Assembly: GCA_025356015.1 (NCBI GenBank)
Contig: JANXYO010000036.1
Span: 1-64,000, forward strand
Origin: Spirochaetaceae bacterium
Lineage (GTDB): Bacteria; Spirochaetota; Spirochaetia; Treponematales; Rectinemataceae
Reading direction: 5' to 3'
Length of the DNA stretch: 64,000 nt
Shown one piece after another: positions 12,094-30,551 of this stretch. How positions within the stretch are numbered: the first letter of the stretch is position 1; each line of letters starts with the position of its first letter. Below the pieces are notes generated by a model. The model saw only the letters and a program-made list of their open reading frames with translations, was not told the origin of the DNA and searched no databases. The position numbers and the translations under genes are program-made.

Positions 12094-12467
12094 CTATTCG
12101 ACGATGAGCTTCCCGCGAAGCATCCCCATGCCGCAGCGGAAGTCGTAGACCCCGGCCTTGTCGGGCTTCGCGTCGATGACGACCTCGACGCCCTCGGGGA
12201 GGTCTGCGGCGAGCCCCAAATCGGGAAACACGACCTTCTCCGAGCAGGCAGAGCTTTCGCGCCGAGTGAAGCGAAGCCGTATGGGCCGGCCGAGCTTGGC
12301 GACGATGACGTCGGGAGTGTAGCCGCCCTTGACCGCGATGGAGATCTCTTGGATCTCGCCGCTCGCGGCGGCGGCCTTCATCCCGGTCCGCGGCTTCCCC
12401 CAGAAGAACCAGGCGATGAGGGCGATGAGGGCCAGGCCCACGGCGTTGACGAGGATCAGATCGAGGC

Positions 12468-12471
<4 letters not shown>
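12094..12471 (-). CDS. Membrane-anchored cupredoxin-domain protein
   Basis: A 125-residue protein with one N-terminal membrane helix (about residues 5-24) and then a single cupredoxin-like beta sandwich. Potential copper ligands are the Cys in ESSACSEKV and the Cys and Met residues in [10 protein letters not shown] at the C-terminal end. The domain should sit outside the cytoplasmic membrane. Its start codon overlaps the stop codon of the copper ATPase gene by four bases, so it is co-translated with that exporter. It probably receives or buffers copper ions delivered by the ATPase. The two cupredoxin domains in the protein at 17186-19189 have the same general Cys and C-x-MGM pattern. Confidence 0.87.
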
Positions 12472-14998
<2,527 letters not shown>

Positions 14999-15002
<4 letters not shown>

Positions 15003-15190
15003 GTTTTCTTGTGCGCGTAGCCGTGGGGGTCTTTGTCGAAGTCCTTCACGCAGGAGGTCGAGCAGAAGTAGAAGGTCATGCCCTCGTGCATCCTCGTCGC
15101 CGCCGCCTCCGAAGCCGCGATTTCCATCCCGCATACGGGATCCCGGACCTTCGCTCCGGTCGACAGACTGCCATGCTTGCCGTGTTCCAT
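14999..15190 (-). CDS. Small YHS-domain metal-binding protein
   Basis: A 63-residue protein consisting almost only of a YHS domain: DPVCGMEI near the start, then [12 protein letters not shown]. These two Cys blocks bind metal in related proteins linked to copper ATPases and heavy-metal resistance. A strong AAGGAGG site lies just before the ATG at 15190. The stop overlaps the ATPase start codon, so it may be a free-standing version of the N-terminal YHS domains that are fused to the ATPase in other bacteria. Confidence 0.9.
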
Positions 15191-15272
15191 ACCTTCCTCC
15201 TTGTCCCGCCTCGTCGCGGGGACATGTATCAGGTTTCGCGAAACTCACAGACATCGAATGGCGAATGCGCTG

Positions 15273-15941
15273 CTAGGGCCTTCCCCCTCCTTCCGCATGG
15301 ATCCTCGCCTCGAAAAGGGAGACCTCTCCGAAGAGCGTGGCATAGCGTCCATGGCGCCTGACCTCTCCAAAACCCGCATCGTGGAGCATCGATGGAATGA
15401 GCCCGAGGGCGTTGGCGCGGGTCCGGTCCCGCCCATCCAGAGTCCGGGGAAGCTCGAAGGCCAGCCTAAGAAGGATATTGCTCGAGCGATCGAAGTCCGC
15501 CAGATAGAGGCTTCCGCCGCGGCGGAGGACACGTCTGATTTCCCTGAGGGCCGCAATCTTCTCGTCATCCAGGAGGTGGTGGAACACGAAGCTTGACAGG
15601 ATGGCGTCGTAACTCCCGTCGGCGTAGGGGAAGCCGCCGCCGTCATAGCCCTGAAAATCGATGCCGGCGGCGCGTTTGGCTGCCTTCGACTTGGCGATCT
15701 CAAGCACCGCCGGGTCGACGTCCAAGCCGGAGACCTCGATGTCGGGTCGGGACTGCTTCACGATGAGCGCAAGCGTCCCCGTCCCGCAGCCGAAGTCGAG
15801 GAGCTTCTTGATGTCCGAGGCCAGCGCCCATTCGGCGAGATCCCGCTTGATCCTGTGCTCGGGCATGAAGGCCCGCATGAAAGGATCGAAGAAGGGGGTC
15901 AGGAAGGGGACGCGGAGGGCGGGAACGAATGATCTCTCCAT
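15273..15941 (-). CDS. Class I SAM-dependent methyltransferase
   Basis: A roughly 222-residue methyltransferase of the UbiE/type 11 group. Motif I is LLDFGCGTGTLAL (near residue 50), followed by an acidic residue in GLDVDP and a post-motif SFVFHHLLDD block. The ATG at 15941 has AGGAG at the right distance. The substrate is not evident. It lies at the head of the copper operon on the minus strand, 82 bases before the YHS gene, and could share a promoter. Methyltransferases of this type are common next to metal resistance genes but a direct role in metal detoxification is not shown here. Confidence 0.85.
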   Translation of the reverse strand: MERSFVPALRVPFLTPFFDPFMRAFMPEHRIKRDLAEWALASDIKKLLDFGCGTGTLALIVKQSRPDIEVSGLDVDPAVLEIAKSKAAKRAAGIDFQGYDGGGFPYADGSYDAILSSFVFHHLLDDEKIAALREIRRVLRRGGSLYLADFDRSSNILLRLAFELPRTLDGRDRTRANALGLIPSMLHDAGFGEVRRHGRYATLFGEVSLFEARIHAEGGGRP

Positions 15942-16064
15942 CAAGCACTCCTGCTAGCTAGGCGCCATCGGATACGACATGCTTCCGTGTTCGCCTAATA
16001 TACTCAGCAAATGGGAAGCCGATTGCTCCGGAGCCCATCCGGTCCTTTCGAGCTGCCGGCGCGC

Positions 16065-16370
16065 TCAGCCGGCGCCGTGCTGGTGCTCGACCGCCTCATC
16101 CTCGCGAGGCTGCCTGCGCTTCGTCCTAGCCTTGTTGCCCATCATGAACATCATGGGGATCATCATAATCGGGCAGAGGAGGAAGCTGTACTTGGCCAGG
16201 CGGTCGATTCCGGGTATGCCGCGCAGCAGGGGCAGCAGGGCGACGATGAGGATGGGCAGCCCGCAGCAGAGCAGCATCATGAGCATGTGGCCGATCCCGC
16301 TGTTGTGATCGCCGTGGCCGTTCTTGTCTTGAGCGGCGTCTTCCTGGTCGTGGTTACCGTGGCAGTTCAT
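16065..16370 (-). CDS. Small His- and Met-rich membrane protein of the copper region
   Basis: A 101-residue protein from the ATG at 16370, preceded by GGAAGGAG. The N-terminal 28 residues are full of His, Asp and Asn (for example NCHGNHDQED and GHGDHNSGIGH), a likely metal-binding tail. Two hydrophobic segments follow, the first containing Cys-Cys (MLLCCGLPILIV) and the second rich in Met (PIMMIPMMFMM). The C-terminal tail ends in EHQHGAG. No family is recognised with confidence. Composition and position between copper genes suggest a small copper-binding or chaperone-like membrane protein. A TTCATC-type repeat lies 30-58 bases upstream of its start. Confidence 0.75.
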   Translation of the reverse strand: MNCHGNHDQEDAAQDKNGHGDHNSGIGHMLMMLLCCGLPILIVALLPLLRGIPGIDRLAKYSFLLCPIMMIPMMFMMGNKARTKRRQPREDEAVEHQHGAG

Positions 16371-16399
16371 AGTGTGGTTTCTCCTTCCGGACCTCAACT

Positions 16400-16980: not shown

Positions 16981-17185
16981 CCTTGATGTCAATTGTCGGA
17001 TCATCGAAGCTCCAGACACAAAGGGGCAAGCTGGGGGCTGCGGATGCCGCGTGCCCGATCGCACCTAATTCCCTTAACCTACACAAGAAACAGGCCGCGT
17101 TCACACTCCGTTCATGCGGGGCTGCTAGATTCTCCGGGTCTTTGCTGCGCTGGAAAAGGTTCATGAAAGCCGAGGAGGCCATGCG

Positions 17186-19189
17186 ATGGGGAATAGGACG
17201 CTGACGCTGCATGTCGAGGGGATGACCTGCTCGTCCTGCGAGGCCCGGATAGAGAAGGCGCTGCTCGCCGTCCCCGGAATTTCGCGCGCCACGGCCAGGG
17301 CCCAGGGTGGGCAGGTCGTCCTCGAGTACGAGGACGGCCTGGCCTCCCCTGCCGCCGCCAGGGCGGCGATCGAGAAGGCCGGCTACACGGTGCGGGACAA
17401 GGGGAACGCGAGCACCCTCATCGCCCTCGGCATAGGCCTCGTGCTGGCCTCGGCCTACATGATCGCGAGCTCAGCGGGACTCTTCAACGCCCTGCCCAAG
17501 ATCGACGCCACGATCGGCTACGGCATGCTCTTCGTGGTCGGCCTCCTCACCTCGGTCCACTGCGTGGCCATGTGCGGCGGCATAGCCCTGTCGCAGAGCA
17601 TCAAGGCCCTGCCCGCGGGCGCGGTCGATGACAAGACGCCCTCCCGCCCCCTCGGCGGCAATCTCAGCAGGCTCGTCCCTGGCCTCCTGTACAACGGCGG
17701 CCGGATCATCTCCTACACGATCGTGGGCGGCATCGTCGGCGCCCTTGGATCGGCCTTCGATTTCTCTCCCACCATCAAGGGCATGATCGCCGGCGCGGCC
17801 GGACTCTTCATGCTCTACCTCGGCCTCAAGATGCTCGGCCTGGTTCCCGCCATGCCGAAGCTTACGCGTCTCCTGCCGGCCGCCGCGGCCGAGAGGATCG
17901 AGGCGATGCGGCAGACCGCCGCCGGCCGCGGCCCCTTTGCGATCGGCCTCCTCAACGGCCTCATGCCCTGCGGCCCCCTGCAGACCATGCAGCTCTACGC
18001 CCTCGGAACGGGGAGTCTCATGGCGGGCGCCCTCTCCATGTTCATCTTCTCGGTGGGGACGGTGCCCCTCATGCTCGCCTTCGGCCTCGCGGCGACCCTC
18101 CTGCCCCGGCGTTTCCTCCCCGTCATGGTCAAGGCCAGCGCCATCCTCGTCATGTTCCTCGGCGTCGTCACCTTCTCGCGGGCGGCCTCGCTCGCGGGCA
18201 TCGCCCTCCCCTCCTTCGGACCGGGCAGCGGCCTCTCCCTTGCCGCGGCAGGCGCCGTGGCCGGCTCCGGCGAGGGCCCCACGGCAGGAGCCGGCGATGG
18301 CCTGGTGGCGACGACGGTCTCGGGCACGACGAACGCGGGCATCGTGGCCAAGCTCGAGAACGGCGTCCAGACGGTGACCACCGAGTTCAAGGACGGCTAC
18401 TACGTCCCCTTCACCGTCCAGGCCGGGGTCCCGGTCAAATGGACGATCCGCGTCACCGAGGACGAGCTCAACGGCTGCAACAACCCCGTGACGATCCCAG
18501 CCTACGGCATCAGAAAGGTCCTCGTCCCCGGGGACAACCTCGTCGAGTTCACGCCCAAGAAGACGGGCACCATCGTCTACACCTGCTGGATGGGCATGAT
18601 CACGAGCCGGATCAGGGTAGTGGCTGACCTCTCCAGCGCCCCGGCGGCCGGCGATGCCGCCGACGGATCGGTAGCCGCCGCCGATGGCTCGGCCCCTGAC
18701 GGCTCCCAGGCCTCGAGGCTCCAGGGCCTCCTCGGCGGTGGCGCCGGCTGCTGCTCGGGCACGAACAACCCGGCCTTCGCAGGCGGCCGCGTCCCGACCG
18801 ACACCATCGGCATGCCGGTCGTCAAGGACGGCGTGCAGGAGATCACGATCACCGTCGACAACCGGGGCTACACGCCCGCCGCGATCTTGCTCCAGAAGGG
18901 GATGAAGGCCGTCATCAAGTTCAAGGCCGCCCAGCTGAGCTCCTGCAACAACGTCGTGATGTTCCCCGAGTACAACGGCGGTCTCGACCTCTCCAAGGGC
19001 CAGCTCGAGACCCCGCCCATCCCGATCACCAACGACTTCACCTTCCAGTGCTGGATGGGGATGCTCCACGGCTACGTCAAGACGGTGGACGACCTCGCGA
19101 AGGTCGACGTCGCCAAGGTCAGGGCCGAGCTGTCCAAGTACCGCGCCACCAAGAAGGGCGGGGGAGCGGGCGGCTGCTGCGGCCAGTGA
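17186..19189 (+). CDS. HMA / DsbD-like (urease accessory UreH-type) / double cupredoxin fusion protein
   Basis: A 667-residue membrane protein that joins four metal-related modules. Residues 1-70 are an HMA domain with CSSC at 15-18. Residues about 75-350 are a multi-helix DsbD_2/UreH-type domain with conserved blocks [12 protein letters not shown] and [15 protein letters not shown]. Two cupredoxin domains follow (about 370-490 and 550-645), each with a C-N-N motif and a C-W-MGM motif near its end. The C-terminus is GGCCGQ, a further Cys pair. DsbD_2-type proteins with HMA domains take part in copper delivery and oxidase assembly. This version probably moves copper or electrons across the membrane to its own extracytoplasmic cupredoxins. 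GAGGAGG precedes the ATG. It starts a rightward copper operon. Confidence 0.88.
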
Positions 19190-19233: not shown

Positions 19234-21691
19234 ATGATAAGGACCGAGAGTCTTAGGATAAACGGGATGACCTGCGCCGCCTGCGCAAGCGCCTCGGAGC
19301 GGGCCGTGAAGCGTCTGGCCGGCGTCGAGGAAGCGGCCGTCAACTTCGCCACGGAGAAGATGTCCATCAGGTTCGAGGACCTTGACCTCGGCCTCGACGA
19401 CATCAAGGCGGCCGTGGCCAAGGCGGGCTACGAGGCCGTGGAGGAGCGGAAGGACAAGGAGATCACCATCCCCGTGGGGGGCATGACCTGCGCCGCCTGC
19501 ACGAAGGCCATCGAGCGCGCCGTCGGCAAGGTCGCGGGCGTCTCGTCGGTCGCGGTGAACTTCGCCACCGAGAGGGCGGCGATCAGCTACGACGCCTCGG
19601 CGACGAGGCTCTCCGAGATCAAGCAGGCCATCGTGAAGGCCGGCTATACCCCCCTCGCCCTCGAGGGTTCGAAGGGCGTCGACGAGCACAAGGCCGCCAA
19701 GGAGCGCGAGATCCGGGTCCTCTGGACGAAGTTCGCGGTCTCGGCTACCTTCGCCCTCCCCCTCCTCTACATCGCGATGGGCGCGATGCTCGGCTGGCCC
19801 CTGCCGGCCTCGATCAACGCCATGAACTATCCCCTGCGCTACGCCCTCCTCGAGATCGCCCTCGTCATCCCCGTCATCGCCGCGGGCTACCGCTTCTACC
19901 TCGTCGGCTTCTCGGCGATATGGCGGCGGGCCCCGAACATGGACAGCCTCATCGCGATGGGCACGAGCGCGGCCATCCTCTACAGCCTCTACTCTGTCCT
20001 CGGGATAGCGAACGGTGACTTCAAGGCCGTGAACAGCCTCTACTTCGAGACGGCCGGGGTGATCATCACCCTCATCCTCCTGGGGAAGTCCCTCGAGGCC
20101 GTGTCGAAGGGCAGGACCTCGGAGTCGATCAAGAAGCTCATGGGGCTCCAGCCCAAGACCGCGACCGTTATCCAGAAGGGCGCGGGCAACGCCACCGCCG
20201 AGATCGAGCTGCCCATAGAGGAGGTCGAGGAGGGCGACCTCATCCTCGTCAGGCCCGGCGAGCGCATCCCGGTGGACGGGGAGATCGTCGAGGGCCGCAC
20301 TTCCGTTGACGAGTCGATGCTGACCGGCGAGAGCATCCCGGTTGAGAAAAGCGTCGGAGCCAAGGTCATCGGCGCAAGCGTCAACAAGAACGGCGCGATA
20401 CGGTTCAGGGCCACCAAGGTCGGGGCGGACACCGTCCTCGCCCATATTATCAAGCTGGTCGAGGACGCCCAGGGATCGAAGGCGCCCATCGCGCAGATGG
20501 CGGACATCGTCTCCGGCTACTTCGTGCCGGTGGTCTTCCTCATCGCCCTAGCGGCGGCGGGCACCTGGCTCCTCCTGGGCCACGGCGCGGTGTTCGCCCT
20601 CACGGTCTTCGTCGCGATCCTCACCATCGCCTGCCCCTGCGCCCTCGGCCTCGCGACGCCCACGGCGATCATGGTCGGCACGGGGCGCGGGGCCGAGAAC
20701 GGTGTCCTCATCAAGTCGGGCGTGGCCCTCGAGACCACGCACAAGGTCGACACGATAGTCTTCGACAAGACCGGGACCCTCACCAAGGGCCGCCCCGAGA
20801 CCACCGACATCGTGGTGGCGCCGGGCTTCAGCGAGGCCGAGCTCCTCTCGCTCACCGCCTCGGCCGAGAAGGCCTCGGAGCACCCCCTGGGCGAGGCCAT
20901 CGTCCGCGCCGCCCTGGAGCGCGGCGCCCCCATCCTCCCCGTCGCCGACTTCGAGGCTGTGCCCGGCTTCGGCATCAAGGCCCTCATCGCCGGCAAGAGG
21001 ATCCTGGCCGGCAACGCCAAGCTGCTCAAGGCCGAGGGCATCGGCTTCGGGCCTGCACTCGACACCGCCGGCGAGGGCAAGACCCCCATGTTCGTCGCCA
21101 TCGACGGCCGCTACGCGGGCATCATCGCCGTCGCCGACGTCGTGAAGGACTCGAGCGCCAAAGCCATCGCTGCCCTCCATGGCATGGGGGTCAGGGTCGC
21201 CATGATCACCGGCGACTCGCGGAGGACGGCCGAGGCCATCGCCAGGAAGGTCGGCATCGACACGGTCCTCGCCGAGGTCCTGCCCCAGGACAAGGCCGCG
21301 GAGGTGAAGAAGCTTCAGGCCGAGGGTCGTGGCGATGGTGGGAGATGGCATCAACGACGCCCCCGCCCTCGCCCAGGCCGACATCGGCATCGCGATCGGC
21401 TCGGGCACCGACGTGGCGATGGAGAGCGCCGACATCGTCCTCATGCGCTCCGACCTCATGGACGTCCCGACGGCCATCAAGCTCTCGAAGAAGGTGATCC
21501 GCAACATCAAGCAGAACCTCTTCTGGGCCTTCGGCTACAACGTCCTCGGCATCCCCGTGGCGGCCGGCCTCCTCTACGCCTTCGGGGGCCCCCTGCTCAA
21601 CCCGATCCTCGCGGCGGCCGCCATGTCGCTCAGCTCGGTATCCGTGCTCACGAACGCCTTGAGGCTTCGAAGATTCAAACCATACATGTGA
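19234..21691 (+). pseudogene. copA: Copper-translocating P1B-type ATPase, frameshifted
   Basis: The frame from ATG 19234 encodes two HMA domains (CAAC at 14-17 and 86-89), membrane segments, CPC metal site, DKTGT phosphorylation site and SEHPLGEA block. Near 21325, after KKLQAEG, the frame is lost. The remaining essential part, [15 protein letters not shown] through the last two membrane helices, continues in another frame and ends at 21691. The change equals +1 or, judged by the sister ATPase at 12468 ([12 protein letters not shown]), a five-base loss. Left in the first frame, the protein would end in an Arg/Pro-rich tail at 21711 and lack the GDGIND hinge, so it would be inactive. A sequencing or assembly error is the main alternative. 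Confidence 0.85.
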
Positions 21692-21707: not shown

Positions 21708-21914
21708 ATGAAGAAGGTTCTGTCGATCGAGGGAATGTCCTGCGGACACTGCGTCGGCCACGTCAAGACCGCACTCGAATCGCTGACCGGCGTCGCGAAG
21801 GCTGAGGTGAGCCTCGAGAGGAAGCAAGCCGTGGTTGAGGGCAGCTCTCTGGACGACACTGCCATGAGAGCCGCCGTCGAAGACGCAGGCTATAAAGCGA
21901 CAGCTATCGTATGA
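21708..21914 (+). CDS. copZ: CopZ-like copper chaperone (single HMA domain)
   Basis: A 68-residue free HMA domain. The metal-binding motif is MSCGHC with Cys at 12 and 15; the rest follows the family pattern to the AVEDAGYKA end. GAGGAGG lies about eight bases before the ATG. It should carry Cu(I) in the cytoplasm to the ATPases. It follows the ATPase directly, so it stays translatable even if the upstream gene is broken. Confidence 0.92.
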
Positions 21915-21928
21915 AAAGGAGCAATGGC

Positions 21929-22648
21929 ATGAAGAAATCATCGTTTGGGATTCTGGTTCTGACCCTCTCTGCCCTCGCGGCCCTCGGCCTGGCTGGCTGC
22001 TCGAGCACCGACGTCGTCGCCAAGGTGGCGAACAGCTCCTTCAAGGCGGTGGCCGACGCGTCGGCGGGCCGCGTCGCCTGGTCGGACGAGGACCAGGCCT
22101 GGAGCCTCTCCTCCCCCGCCGGGGACAAGGTCTCCTTCGCGGCCGACTTCTCCCGGAACAACTCCTCGAGCGGAGTCGACTTCGACAAGCCCGACGTGGA
22201 GTTCTCCTTCGACGCCGCGCCTTTCATCGCCGCCGGCCTCGACATCAAGAAGCTCCCCGCGGTGGACGGCATCAAGTACGAGCTGGAGGACGGAAGGTTC
22301 ATGTACCACTTCGAGCTCGGGGCCGACAAGTTGGCTGCCGCTGCCAAGGCCTCCCTCGAGGCGAGCTTCGCCGAGCTCGTGCGGACCCAGCGAGCAAGGA
22401 TAGGCTACCACGAGAAGCTCGACCACTACGGGATCAAGCTCGGCGGCGGCAACATGCTCGAGTGGGCCAAGGACATGTCGAAGAACGACAAGGACCTCGT
22501 CTTCGTCCTCGACCCCGCCCCCTTCATCGCGGCGGGCGTGGATCCGGCCAAGATCCAGGGCTGGGCCTACGCCAAGGTGGAGACCAAGGACGATGCCGGA
22601 AAGGCGATCCAGGTGGACAAGCTGCTCCGGCCCTTTAACCTGAAATAG
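21929..22648 (+). CDS. Putative lipoprotein of the copper operon
   Basis: A 239-residue protein from ATG 21929, chosen because AAAGGAG lies about eight bases upstream; a longer frame starts at 21911 inside copZ. A lipoprotein signal peptide ends in the lipobox LAGC, giving a lipid-anchored Cys near residue 23. The mature part contains two similar blocks, FDAAPFIAAGLD and LDPAPFIAAGVD, each followed by a short basic or polar stretch and a strand, so it may be two copies of one module. No family is recognised. It ends the rightward copper operon and may bind or sense copper at the cell surface. This is inference from context only. Confidence 0.75.
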   Translation: MKKSSFGILVLTLSALAALGLAGCSSTDVVAKVANSSFKAVADASAGRVAWSDEDQAWSLSSPAGDKVSFAADFSRNNSSSGVDFDKPDVEFSFDAAPFIAAGLDIKKLPAVDGIKYELEDGRFMYHFELGADKLAAAAKASLEASFAELVRTQRARIGYHEKLDHYGIKLGGGNMLEWAKDMSKNDKDLVFVLDPAPFIAAGVDPAKIQGWAYAKVETKDDAGKAIQVDKLLRPFNLK

Positions 22649-28346: not shown

Positions 28347-28410
28347 GCTTGCATCGCCTACTCCCACCGGAGCCCATTTGCGGGCTATCATGAGCACATG
28401 GGAGGATCCT

Positions 28411-29118
28411 GTGCAGCCTAGAGTGCTTGTTGTCGACGATGAGGAGAAGATCGCGAAGCTGGTGGGCAGCTATCTCGCGGCCTCGGGCTACGAGCCCGTC
28501 CTCGCCTACAGCGGGGACGAGGCGCTCTCGGCCTTCGCCTCCAGGACCCCAGCCTGCGTCATCCTCGACATCAACATGCCGGGCAAAGACGGGCTCGAGG
28601 TCGCGCGCGAGATCCGCAGGACCTCGAACGCGCCCATCATCTTCCTGAGCGCCAGGGCCGAGGAGATCGACAAGATCCTCGGGCTCGAGCTCGGCGGCGA
28701 CGACTACGTCACCAAGCCCTTCAGCCCGAGGGAGCTCATGTCGCGAGTGAAGGCCGTCATGCGGAGGGCCACTGCCCTCCTGGCCCAGACCGAGGGCCCG
28801 GACAAGGGCCAGGTCATGAGCCACGGCGACCTGGAGGTCGACACGGCGAAGCGCTCGGTGTGCAGGGCCGGCCGAAAGATCGAGCTCACGGCCATCCAGT
28901 TCAACATCCTCGCCTTCCTCATGCGACAGCCCGGGAGGGTCTACTCCCGAATCGAGATCCTCGAGGGCGCCGCCGGCATTGACTACGAGGGCTACGAGCG
29001 GACCCTCGACGTGCACATCAAGAACCTCCGCAAGGCCCTGGGCGACGACACCGAGATGCCCCAGTACATCGGGACGGTGCGCGGCATCGGCTACAAGTTC
29101 ATCGAGCGCATCGCGTGA
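28411..29118 (+). CDS. OmpR-family DNA-binding response regulator
   Basis: A 235-residue regulator from GTG 28411, which has GGAGGA four bases upstream; an ATG at 28390 in the same frame is possible but has no such site. The receiver domain has the acidic pair VDDEE, the phosphoacceptor Asp near 53 (VILDINMPG) and a late Lys in TKPF. The C-terminal winged helix shows LTAIQFNILAFLM and YIGTVRGIGYKF. It is paired with the sensor kinase gene that overlaps its end by four bases; that kinase is broken in this sequence, so this regulator may lack its usual input. Confidence 0.92.
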   Translation: MQPRVLVVDDEEKIAKLVGSYLAASGYEPVLAYSGDEALSAFASRTPACVILDINMPGKDGLEVAREIRRTSNAPIIFLSARAEEIDKILGLELGGDDYVTKPFSPRELMSRVKAVMRRATALLAQTEGPDKGQVMSHGDLEVDTAKRSVCRAGRKIELTAIQFNILAFLMRQPGRVYSRIEILEGAAGIDYEGYERTLDVHIKNLRKALGDDTEMPQYIGTVRGIGYKFIERIA

Positions 29119-30551
29119 GCATCAGGTGGCGCCTCCTCGTGTTCTTCGCCCTCGTCATCGGCGCGGGGGGCCTCATGACCTTCATGCTAGTCAGGCGGGC
29201 CGCCGAGACCCAGCTGCGCAGCTATGCATTTACGGGCGACGCGGAGAAGGCCAAGGTCTACGCCGGGATCCTCGCCGAGTACTACGCCGAGCATATGGCC
29301 GGATGGGTGGTGCCGAGGAGCTTGCCCGAGGTGTCGGCCACGATGTGGCCCTCGCCGTCGGCGACGGCGATCCGGTCCGACAGGAGGGCGCTGATCGTGG
29401 AGAAGGTGTGGGCCGCGGCGGGGGAGAAGCTCGCCTCGCCCTTGATCTTCTCGTCGAGCTTGGCGAAGACGTAGGACGGCATCTCGGAGAGGAAGGTCTG
29501 CAGGCCCCCCCAGCCCCTGAAGGTCGAGTCGACCATGGAGCCGACGAGGACTGTGCCGATGCGTCTGAAGTCGGCCATGATCGGGACGCCCTGGGCGAGG
29601 TGCATCCCCGGGGCCAACGAGCTCTTCCTCGCCAAGCTCATGAAGACCCTGTCGATCGCGATCCTCGTCTCGGCCGCCCTGGCCGCCCTCCTCGGCCTCG
29701 GCCTGTCCATCCAGATCACGAGGCCCCTGGCCCTCCTCGACGGGGCTGCGCGGAGGATAGCCGCGGGCGAGCTCGCGGTGATGGTGCCGGTCAGCGGGAG
29801 GGACGAGGTGGCGAGCCTCTCAGCCTCCTTCAACGCGATGACGGAGGAGCTGAAGCGGCTCGACGAGGCCAAGCGGAGGATCATCGCCGACTCGGCCCAC
29901 GAGCGGCGGACCCGGGTCACCCTCATCCGTGGCCTCCTCGAGGGCGTGATCGACGGGGTCCACCCCCTCGACATGGACATGATCAAGAGCGTCCACGACG
30001 AGACCCTGCGGCTCTCGCGGCTCATCGACATGCTCCACGAGCTCGAGCTCATCGACTCGGGCGAGCTGAAGCTGTCCCTCGACGAGGTCGAGCTCATCCC
30101 CGCCCTCGAGAAGGCGGCGAGCCTCTTCGGCCCCTCGGCGGGGGAGAAGGGGATCTGCATCGAGGTCGGGCGCCCGGATACTGATGGGGCCCGAGCGCGG
30201 GTCGATGTCCTGCGCTTCGACGAGGTCCTCTATAACCTGATCGGGAACGCCATCAAGTACAGCCCCAAGGGGGGCAAGGTGCTCTGCACAGCCCGCCGCG
30301 CTGGCCCTTCGGTCCGAGTCGCCATCGAGGACTCGGGCCCGGGCATCCCCGAGCCCGAGAGGGAAAAGGTCTTCGAGCGCTTCTACCGCATGGACAAGTC
30401 CCGGGCCCAAGACTCGGGAGGCAGGGGCCTTGGCCTCTCGATAGGCTTCGAGATCGTCAAGGCCCACGGCGGGAGCATCGGGATCGAGGACTCGCCGCTC
30501 GGCGGCTCCTCCTTCGTCGTGACCCTCCCTGCCATCCCCACCCCAGCCTAG
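29115..30551 (+). pseudogene. Sensor histidine kinase with inverted sensor segment
   Basis: The gene should encode a 478-residue kinase: first membrane helix (about residues 7-27), periplasmic sensor, second helix (about 175-200), HAMP domain, HisKA, and HATPase (NLIGNAIKYSP, DSGPGIPEPE, GGRGLGLSIG). The frame from ATG 29115 makes sense for 60 residues, then turns into nonsense and meets a stop at 29472. The original frame resumes at about 29607 and continues to 30551. The missing sensor is present on the opposite strand between 29297 and 29605 (see next entry). In addition, the histidine box reads HERRTR where HELRTP is expected, with the key Leu and Pro changed to Arg. As written the gene cannot give a full kinase. 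Confidence 0.88.
29297..29605 (-). other. Two adjacent blocks inverted in place inside the kinase gene
   Basis: Block A (29297-29515, 219 bp) reads on the minus strand as a kinase sensor domain from GWGGLQTFLSEMP to LLGTTHPA, including RIAVADGEGHIVADTSG. Block B (29516-29605, 90 bp) reads on the minus strand from MHLAQGVPIM to GSMVDSTF. The natural order is A then B, yet each is reversed in its own place. Turning each block around gives kinase residues AEH, A, B, then PGANELFLAKL without a frame change, since both lengths and the whole interval are multiples of three. The ends of A carry an imperfect inverted repeat (GGCCGGATGGG at 29297 against GGCTGGGGGGG read backwards from 29515). A palindrome GGTCGAGTCGACC lies at 29522-29534. 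Confidence 0.85.

Follow-up and report, generated by a model that had tools for sequence, protein, structure and literature searches.

The open reading frame at positions 17186 to 19189 (+) of the window, by which I mean the whole analysed stretch of 64,000 nucleotides from a Spirochaetaceae genome, encodes a protein of 667 amino acids in which an HMA domain, a DsbD_2 membrane core and two cupredoxins follow each other in a single chain, and which is very probably a copper-tolerance protein with outward-facing sites of the CupA type. Most likely, it serves in copper tolerance as a Cu(I) relay or as an extracytoplasmic Cu(I) acceptor. The architecture is common and apparently unstudied, and it is well supported as that of a copper protein.

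The reading frame is intact from ATG to stop, and the layout proposed in a first-pass annotation, namely HMA, DsbD_2, two cupredoxins and a Cys-Cys tail, is confirmed by the frame itself, by Pfam and phmmer, and by an AlphaFold2 model. The HMA domain occupies aa 7-68 (17204 to 17389, +; Pfam, E 4.5e-13), with the MxCxxC motif at aa 13-18 conserved throughout the family (about 90 alignment rows), and the six-helix DsbD_2 core occupies aa 115-328 (17528 to 18169, +; Pfam, E 5e-48). The Pfam family Cupredoxin_1 is found in two stretches with a whole-protein score of 38.8 bits (cut-off 27), corresponding to cupredoxin 1 at about aa 385-480 (18338 to 18625, +) and cupredoxin 2 at about aa 545-634 (18818 to 19087, +). 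Scored alone, cupredoxin 2 reaches 19.5 bits and stays under the cut-off; I nevertheless regard it as real, because phmmer matches it to CupA (4.8e-9), the AlphaFold2 model folds it into a confident beta-domain, and in a 65%-identical paralog the best Pfam cupredoxin stretch is the second domain. This paralog, located on contig C36, is a second full-length four-module copy in the same genome (4.17 Mb, 150 contigs). In addition to the Cys-Cys pair in the C-terminal tail GGCCGQ (aa 664-665; 19175 to 19180, +), the linker between the cupredoxins carries a further pair (aa 522-523; 18749 to 18754, +) that the first-pass annotation had not recorded. A tandem-repeat artefact in the frame was looked for and not found.

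Among solved structures, the cupredoxins are closest to CupA of Streptococcus pneumoniae and to the cupredoxin domain of its CopA. Both cupredoxins match these two by sequence, the first (1.7e-5 against CupA, 4F2E) also by structure, with a Z-score of 15.0 over 95-98 residues and an rmsd of 2.3 at 95 residues, so that structure prediction, proposed earlier as a check on the copper sites, supports a cupredoxin fold in the first domain and a beta-domain in the second. CupA binds two Cu(I) via C74, C111, M113 and M115 (PMC5646241), and these residues align with C431, C467, M469 and M471 in cupredoxin 1 and with C587, C622, M624 and M626 in cupredoxin 2. Judged by this Cys-Cys-Met-Met ligand set, both cupredoxins are of the CupA kind and should bind copper, as Cu(I). 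The concern that the ligand residues might be misplaced for metal is dispelled at the sequence level, as the full set is present in both domains. A classical type-1 (blue) electron-transfer cupredoxin, with two His and one Cys together with Met, is ruled out by the ligands: none of the rows has His at any of the four ligand positions in cupredoxin 1, where Cys/Cys/Met/Met stands instead.

The two sites differ in their conservation. Site 1 is intact in all 89 rows having letters there, while site 2 keeps C/C/M/M in 32 rows, is stripped of all or most of its ligands in 38, and is missing together with its domain in 18. Site 2 is thus degenerate in about half of the two-cupredoxin relatives, though intact in the window protein, and since its ligands or the entire domain are lacking in so many relatives, the second cupredoxin is optional and the mechanism does not depend on it. 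Cys-Cys pairs and intact sites vary together in number, with two pairs in 23 of the 32 proteins with an intact site 2 and one pair in 31 of the 38 with a degenerate one; on the tree, this link comes down to only 5 independent pairs (p = 0.125), and a rule of one Cys-Cys pair per working cupredoxin, however suggestive the counts, was not retained on that number.

The AlphaFold2 model of the whole protein (mean pLDDT 80.6, pTM 0.67, 69 sequences) shows seven TM helices, at 76-96, 112-138, 164-190, 195-217, 250-275 (broken at PCG), 278-305 and 308-336. The loops after TM2, TM4 and TM6 are net positive (+0.9, +6.3 and +1.6, respectively), and those after TM1, TM3, TM5 and TM7 have a charge of about zero or below. 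Given seven helices and this positive-inside pattern, the HMA domain is predicted to be cytosolic, placed inside by the extra helix at aa 76-96 (17411 to 17473, +), and both cupredoxins are predicted to be extracytoplasmic, in agreement with the inner HMA and outer cupredoxins of the first-pass annotation.

The membrane core has the hallmark of DsbD and CcdA, a six-helix DsbD_2 core with Cys in each of two core helices (C126/C130 and C262, all conserved). The residues H125-C126-x2-M129-C130 and C262 are common to the fused proteins and to the stand-alone DsbD_2 proteins of the phylum, whereas 86-91 of 91 fused proteins, as against 0-4 of 22 stand-alone ones, have M209, M216, M260 and M268. Such clade-restricted membrane methionines in a thiol core would point to an added path for a soft metal; as the contrast separates clades, it is not independent evidence, and the methionines may have been gained in a single evolutionary event. 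In a second subtype, found on plasmids of Tsukamurella and Deinococcus and in two spirochaete loci, the first core helix carries just one Cys. The plasmid proteins keep C/C/M/M, and their HMA protein is encoded by a separate gene adjoining the DsbD_2-cupredoxin gene, a split version which supports the idea that HMA and core act together. A solved DsbD or CcdA structure matching the core by sequence was not found, and the fold search with the whole model was filled by HMA and cupredoxin matches and barely probed the core.

A comparison of genome context, also suggested in the first-pass annotation, shows that the four-module gene comes first in a conserved operon that also holds copA, copZ and a lipoprotein gene and is often accompanied by a two-component system. 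In the window, it is followed by a gene for a CopA-type P1B ATPase with two HMA domains (19234 to 21691, +; Pfam, NCBIfam), a CopZ-like small HMA chaperone of 68 aa (21708 to 21914, +), with an HMA match, and a conserved lipoprotein of a family without a name (21911 to 22648, +). The copA gene is broken by a 5-bp deletion near 21328 (21325-21335) relative to the intact paralog on contig C36, which could be either real decay or an assembly error. Further downstream, beyond a gap filled by signalling genes, lie an OmpR-family response regulator (28378 to 29118, +), the nearest relatives of which adjoin the copper operon of related genomes, and a sensor histidine kinase (29116 to 30551, +) broken by an in-frame stop in its sensor part, with the H-box HERRTR where relatives have HELRTP. 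Among related loci, copA follows in the same orientation in 47 of the 67 with enough sequence, copZ and the lipoprotein gene recur beside the four-module gene, and an OmpR-family response regulator is encoded nearby in 35 of the 57 having 5 kb downstream. The two operon copies of the genome look damaged in different ways: the window copy has a broken copA and kinase with an intact lipoprotein and regulator, whereas in the contig C36 copy CopA and the kinase are intact, the lipoprotein is shortened, and no regulator lies in between. The kinase of the latter copy (locus L108, 1779-3560) is 56% identical to that of the window.

Across Spirochaetota and Clostridia, the lipoprotein accompanies the copper operon as a conserved partner. 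Its family has no sequence match in Pfam, NCBIfam or the PDB, and a fold search with its confident AlphaFold model (pLDDT 87.7) gave no clear match (best Z 3.6). Its relatives share the invariant motifs YH..D-H and EWAKD...DKD, and an internal duplication of PFIAAG(L/V)D.

Upstream of the four-module gene, at 17099 to 17131 (+), a pattern search detects the promoter element GTTCAC-N5-GTTCAT-N10-TAGATT, a direct repeat with an 11-bp period next to a -10-like TAGATT, with one match in the window and none in 100 shuffles. In the 4.17 Mb genome, GTTCAY-N5-GTTCAY occurs exactly twice, each time within the 100 bp that precede a four-module gene. About two matches is also what I take to be the chance expectation for a genome of such size and even base composition, hence the number alone means little and it is the positions that are informative. 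The repeat is found upstream of about a dozen distinct orthologous genes, as against 0.01 expected per shuffled set; in related genomes it mostly precedes the orthologues and elsewhere often copper-linked genes, and it is also present before the lipoprotein gene (as a promoter repeat of its own in one relative), before a DUF302 gene and a YtkA-like gene, and before a relative of the methyltransferase gene at 15273-15944. At clostridial loci, the repeat was not found. An 11-bp direct repeat beside a -10 element is the usual form of an activation site of the OmpR/PhoB family. The repeat is therefore likely, going by its pattern, to be a response-regulator site of this type, which the regulator at 28378-29118 would bind. 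No sign of CsoR-like control was seen in a rough pattern search upstream of the four-module gene; the only CsoR gene of the genome is located on another contig, adjoining another CopA, and the upstream region holds a different repeat.

The first-pass annotation had implied that the combination of modules was rare, and this did not hold. A genome scan with one genome per species yields at least 579 relatives among at least 594 stretches listed; the 80 that were retained belong to Spirochaetota, to Bacillota (mostly Clostridia) and, in one case, to Chloroflexota. With profiles built in this analysis, 78 open reading frames of the form HMA-DsbD-cupredoxin-cupredoxin and 23 of the form HMA-DsbD-cupredoxin were counted among the loci recovered, some of which duplicate each other. 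Rarity is thus ruled out, and exactly this architecture occurs widely among Spirochaetota and Clostridia. The possibility that it was already common and characterised holds for its first part only: the proteins are common and annotated, the shorter relatives as 'sulfite exporter TauE/SafE family protein' by NCBI, but a functional study of HMA-DsbD_2-cupredoxin proteins was not found in open-licence papers. Spread of the four-module form by plasmids is unsupported, as no plasmid record covers 80% of it and only partial forms are found on such records.

The soft-metal residues all indicate Cu(I) as the metal. In the reading that I favour, the cytosolic HMA domain would take Cu(I), or dock CopZ carrying it, Cu(I) would cross the DsbD_2 core along C126, M129, C130 and C262 together with M209, M216, M260 and M268, and the outer cupredoxins with the two Cys-Cys pairs would hold Cu(I) and hand it on, beside export by CopA; the direction is presumably outward. 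Support for such a path comes from the conserved MxCxxC and C/C/M/M motifs, the match to CupA, the topology, the copA neighbourhood and the split HMA genes, and it is the membrane methionines that make it preferable to an electron path. I would put its chance at just under even. I know of no DsbD-fold protein that transports metal, the core keeps the thiols by which DsbD carries electrons, and a second route needs a reason where CopA already exports Cu(I). The same thiols allow for the alternative that the DsbD-like core sends electrons outward to the cupredoxin Cys and the Cys-Cys pairs, which would make the protein a membrane-fed cupric reductase and copper acceptor, with the CupA sites either reducing Cu(II) to Cu(I) or becoming re-reduced afterwards. 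Taken with these variants, the electron path is a possibility to be reckoned with, though a rather doubtful one, and both paths could be true. The electron path agrees with the presence of C126/C130 and C262 as in stand-alone DsbD_2 proteins, with the subtype in which C/C/M/M goes together with a single Cys per helix in the two core helices, with the tracking of Cys-Cys pairs and intact sites, which the 5 independent pairs weaken, and with the reduction of Cu(II) by CupA through C74/C111, for which a reductant is needed and the electron donor is unknown (PMC5646241). It sits less well with an inner domain of copper chaperone fold, with the lack of a thioredoxin-like domain (no thioredoxin family is matched in Pfam or NCBIfam), and with four extra membrane methionines that are superfluous for thiol exchange.

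Two further explanations dispense with a path through the core. The protein could bind copper on both sides as a sensor or scaffold, regulating or docking either CopA or the two-component system, as its copper-binding domains on both faces and the conserved neighbourhood with an OmpR-type regulator and a kinase may suggest; I consider this improbable, as the kinases own a sensor part and the core residues are conserved beyond the need of a mere anchor. Alternatively, the outer cupredoxins could supply secreted or membrane copper enzymes instead of serving tolerance, in line with the loose annotation of COG2836-type HMA and DsbD_2 proteins as transport or biogenesis factors and with a multicopper oxidase near the split version in Tsukamurella. 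This is more improbable still: the recurring partners are copA, copZ, the lipoprotein and the two-component system, a copper enzyme beside the operon was seen only in that Tsukamurella version in a partial survey of neighbours, and most carriers belong to largely anaerobic lineages, which disfavours such a role. Returning to the core, it is a tentative conclusion, leaning to the doubtful side, that the outward CupA sites are fed by a DsbD-type core converted either to a Cu(I) path independent of ATP or to a cupric reductase supplied by thiols. If true, spirochaetes and clostridia would handle copper by a further principle in addition to P1B ATPases and CusABC, one often equipped with a two-component system of its own. 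Mutation of the invariant thiols and of the methionines specific to the clade could allow Cu(I) transfer to be separated from electron transfer.

Among known systems, CupA (4F2E, 2MRY) and the CopA cupredoxin domain (4F2F) of S. pneumoniae share the fold, the Cys / Cys-x-Met-x-Met ligands and the tie to a CopA ATPase. CupA, however, is a single cytosol-facing domain with one TM helix, whereas the four-module protein has two copies predicted outside and fused to HMA and DsbD_2. CupA-type sites are thereby placed on the outer face of a membrane protein that is very common in spirochaetes and clostridia but apparently unstudied, and the fusion to a DsbD-type core makes the electron-donor question of CupA directly testable. 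The COG2836 or 'sulfite exporter TauE/SafE family' proteins likewise combine HMA and DsbD_2 in one chain with a link to copper, and those in gut Firmicutes are predicted CsoR targets (PMC4938975). The group described there has HMA, DsbD_2 and DUF2318 domains and no cupredoxin, while the four-module protein adds CupA-type cupredoxins, Cys-Cys pairs and a promoter repeat of the response-regulator type. In the Chloroflexi genome SURF MAG 71, DsbD_2 and a cupredoxin are joined in one protein between CopZ and a copper P-type ATPase, with HMA and CsoR-like genes alongside; in the part of the source consulted, it is an appendix-table entry with no functional statement (PMC8756737). The thiol reductases DsbD, CcdA and ScsB, the last of which is also tied to copper (PMC7785015), have the same six-helix core with Cys in each of two core helices, but in the four-module protein HMA and cupredoxins replace the thioredoxin-like partner, and the core has extra Met.

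The window also encodes a free-standing CupA homologue (12094 to 12471, -; 4.4e-25 against CupA), in which an N-terminal TM helix precedes the CupA cupredoxin. With KPRTGMK after the only TM helix, the positive-inside rule predicts that this protein faces the cytosol. The complete CupA layout, one N-terminal TM helix and a single cytosolic cupredoxin, is thus seen in this protein and not in the four-module one. The first-pass annotation had observed that the two share Cys and MGM features and that the domain may be shared across the locus. They do belong to the same family, and the likeness was understated, as the whole Cys / Cys-x-Met-x-Met set is common to both; yet with its predicted cytosolic orientation and its separate operon, the free CupA is not simply the same part. 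This operon is headed by a methyltransferase (15273 to 15944, -), a relative of which carries the GTTCAY promoter repeat in genome G006, and continues with a YHS-domain protein of 63 aa (14999 to 15190, -) and a second CopA-type ATPase (12468 to 15254, -; Pfam, NCBIfam) that overlaps the CupA gene. As the YHS frame overlaps, in another frame, the over-long 5' end of this CopA, the true start of the latter is probably further downstream, nearer 15000. A stand-alone CupA match was found in none of the 58 related genomes (59 searched including that of the window), and the methyltransferase-YHS-CopA-CupA operon was probably acquired. In the literature, CupA is restricted to a few streptococci (PMC7558416); the free copy extends it beyond these, here paired with a CopA of the HMA type and not of the cupredoxin type. 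Between this operon and the four-module gene, at 16065 to 16397 (-), lies a gene for a small membrane protein with a weak DUF2933-like match, relatives of which are located near the four-module gene in several other loci.
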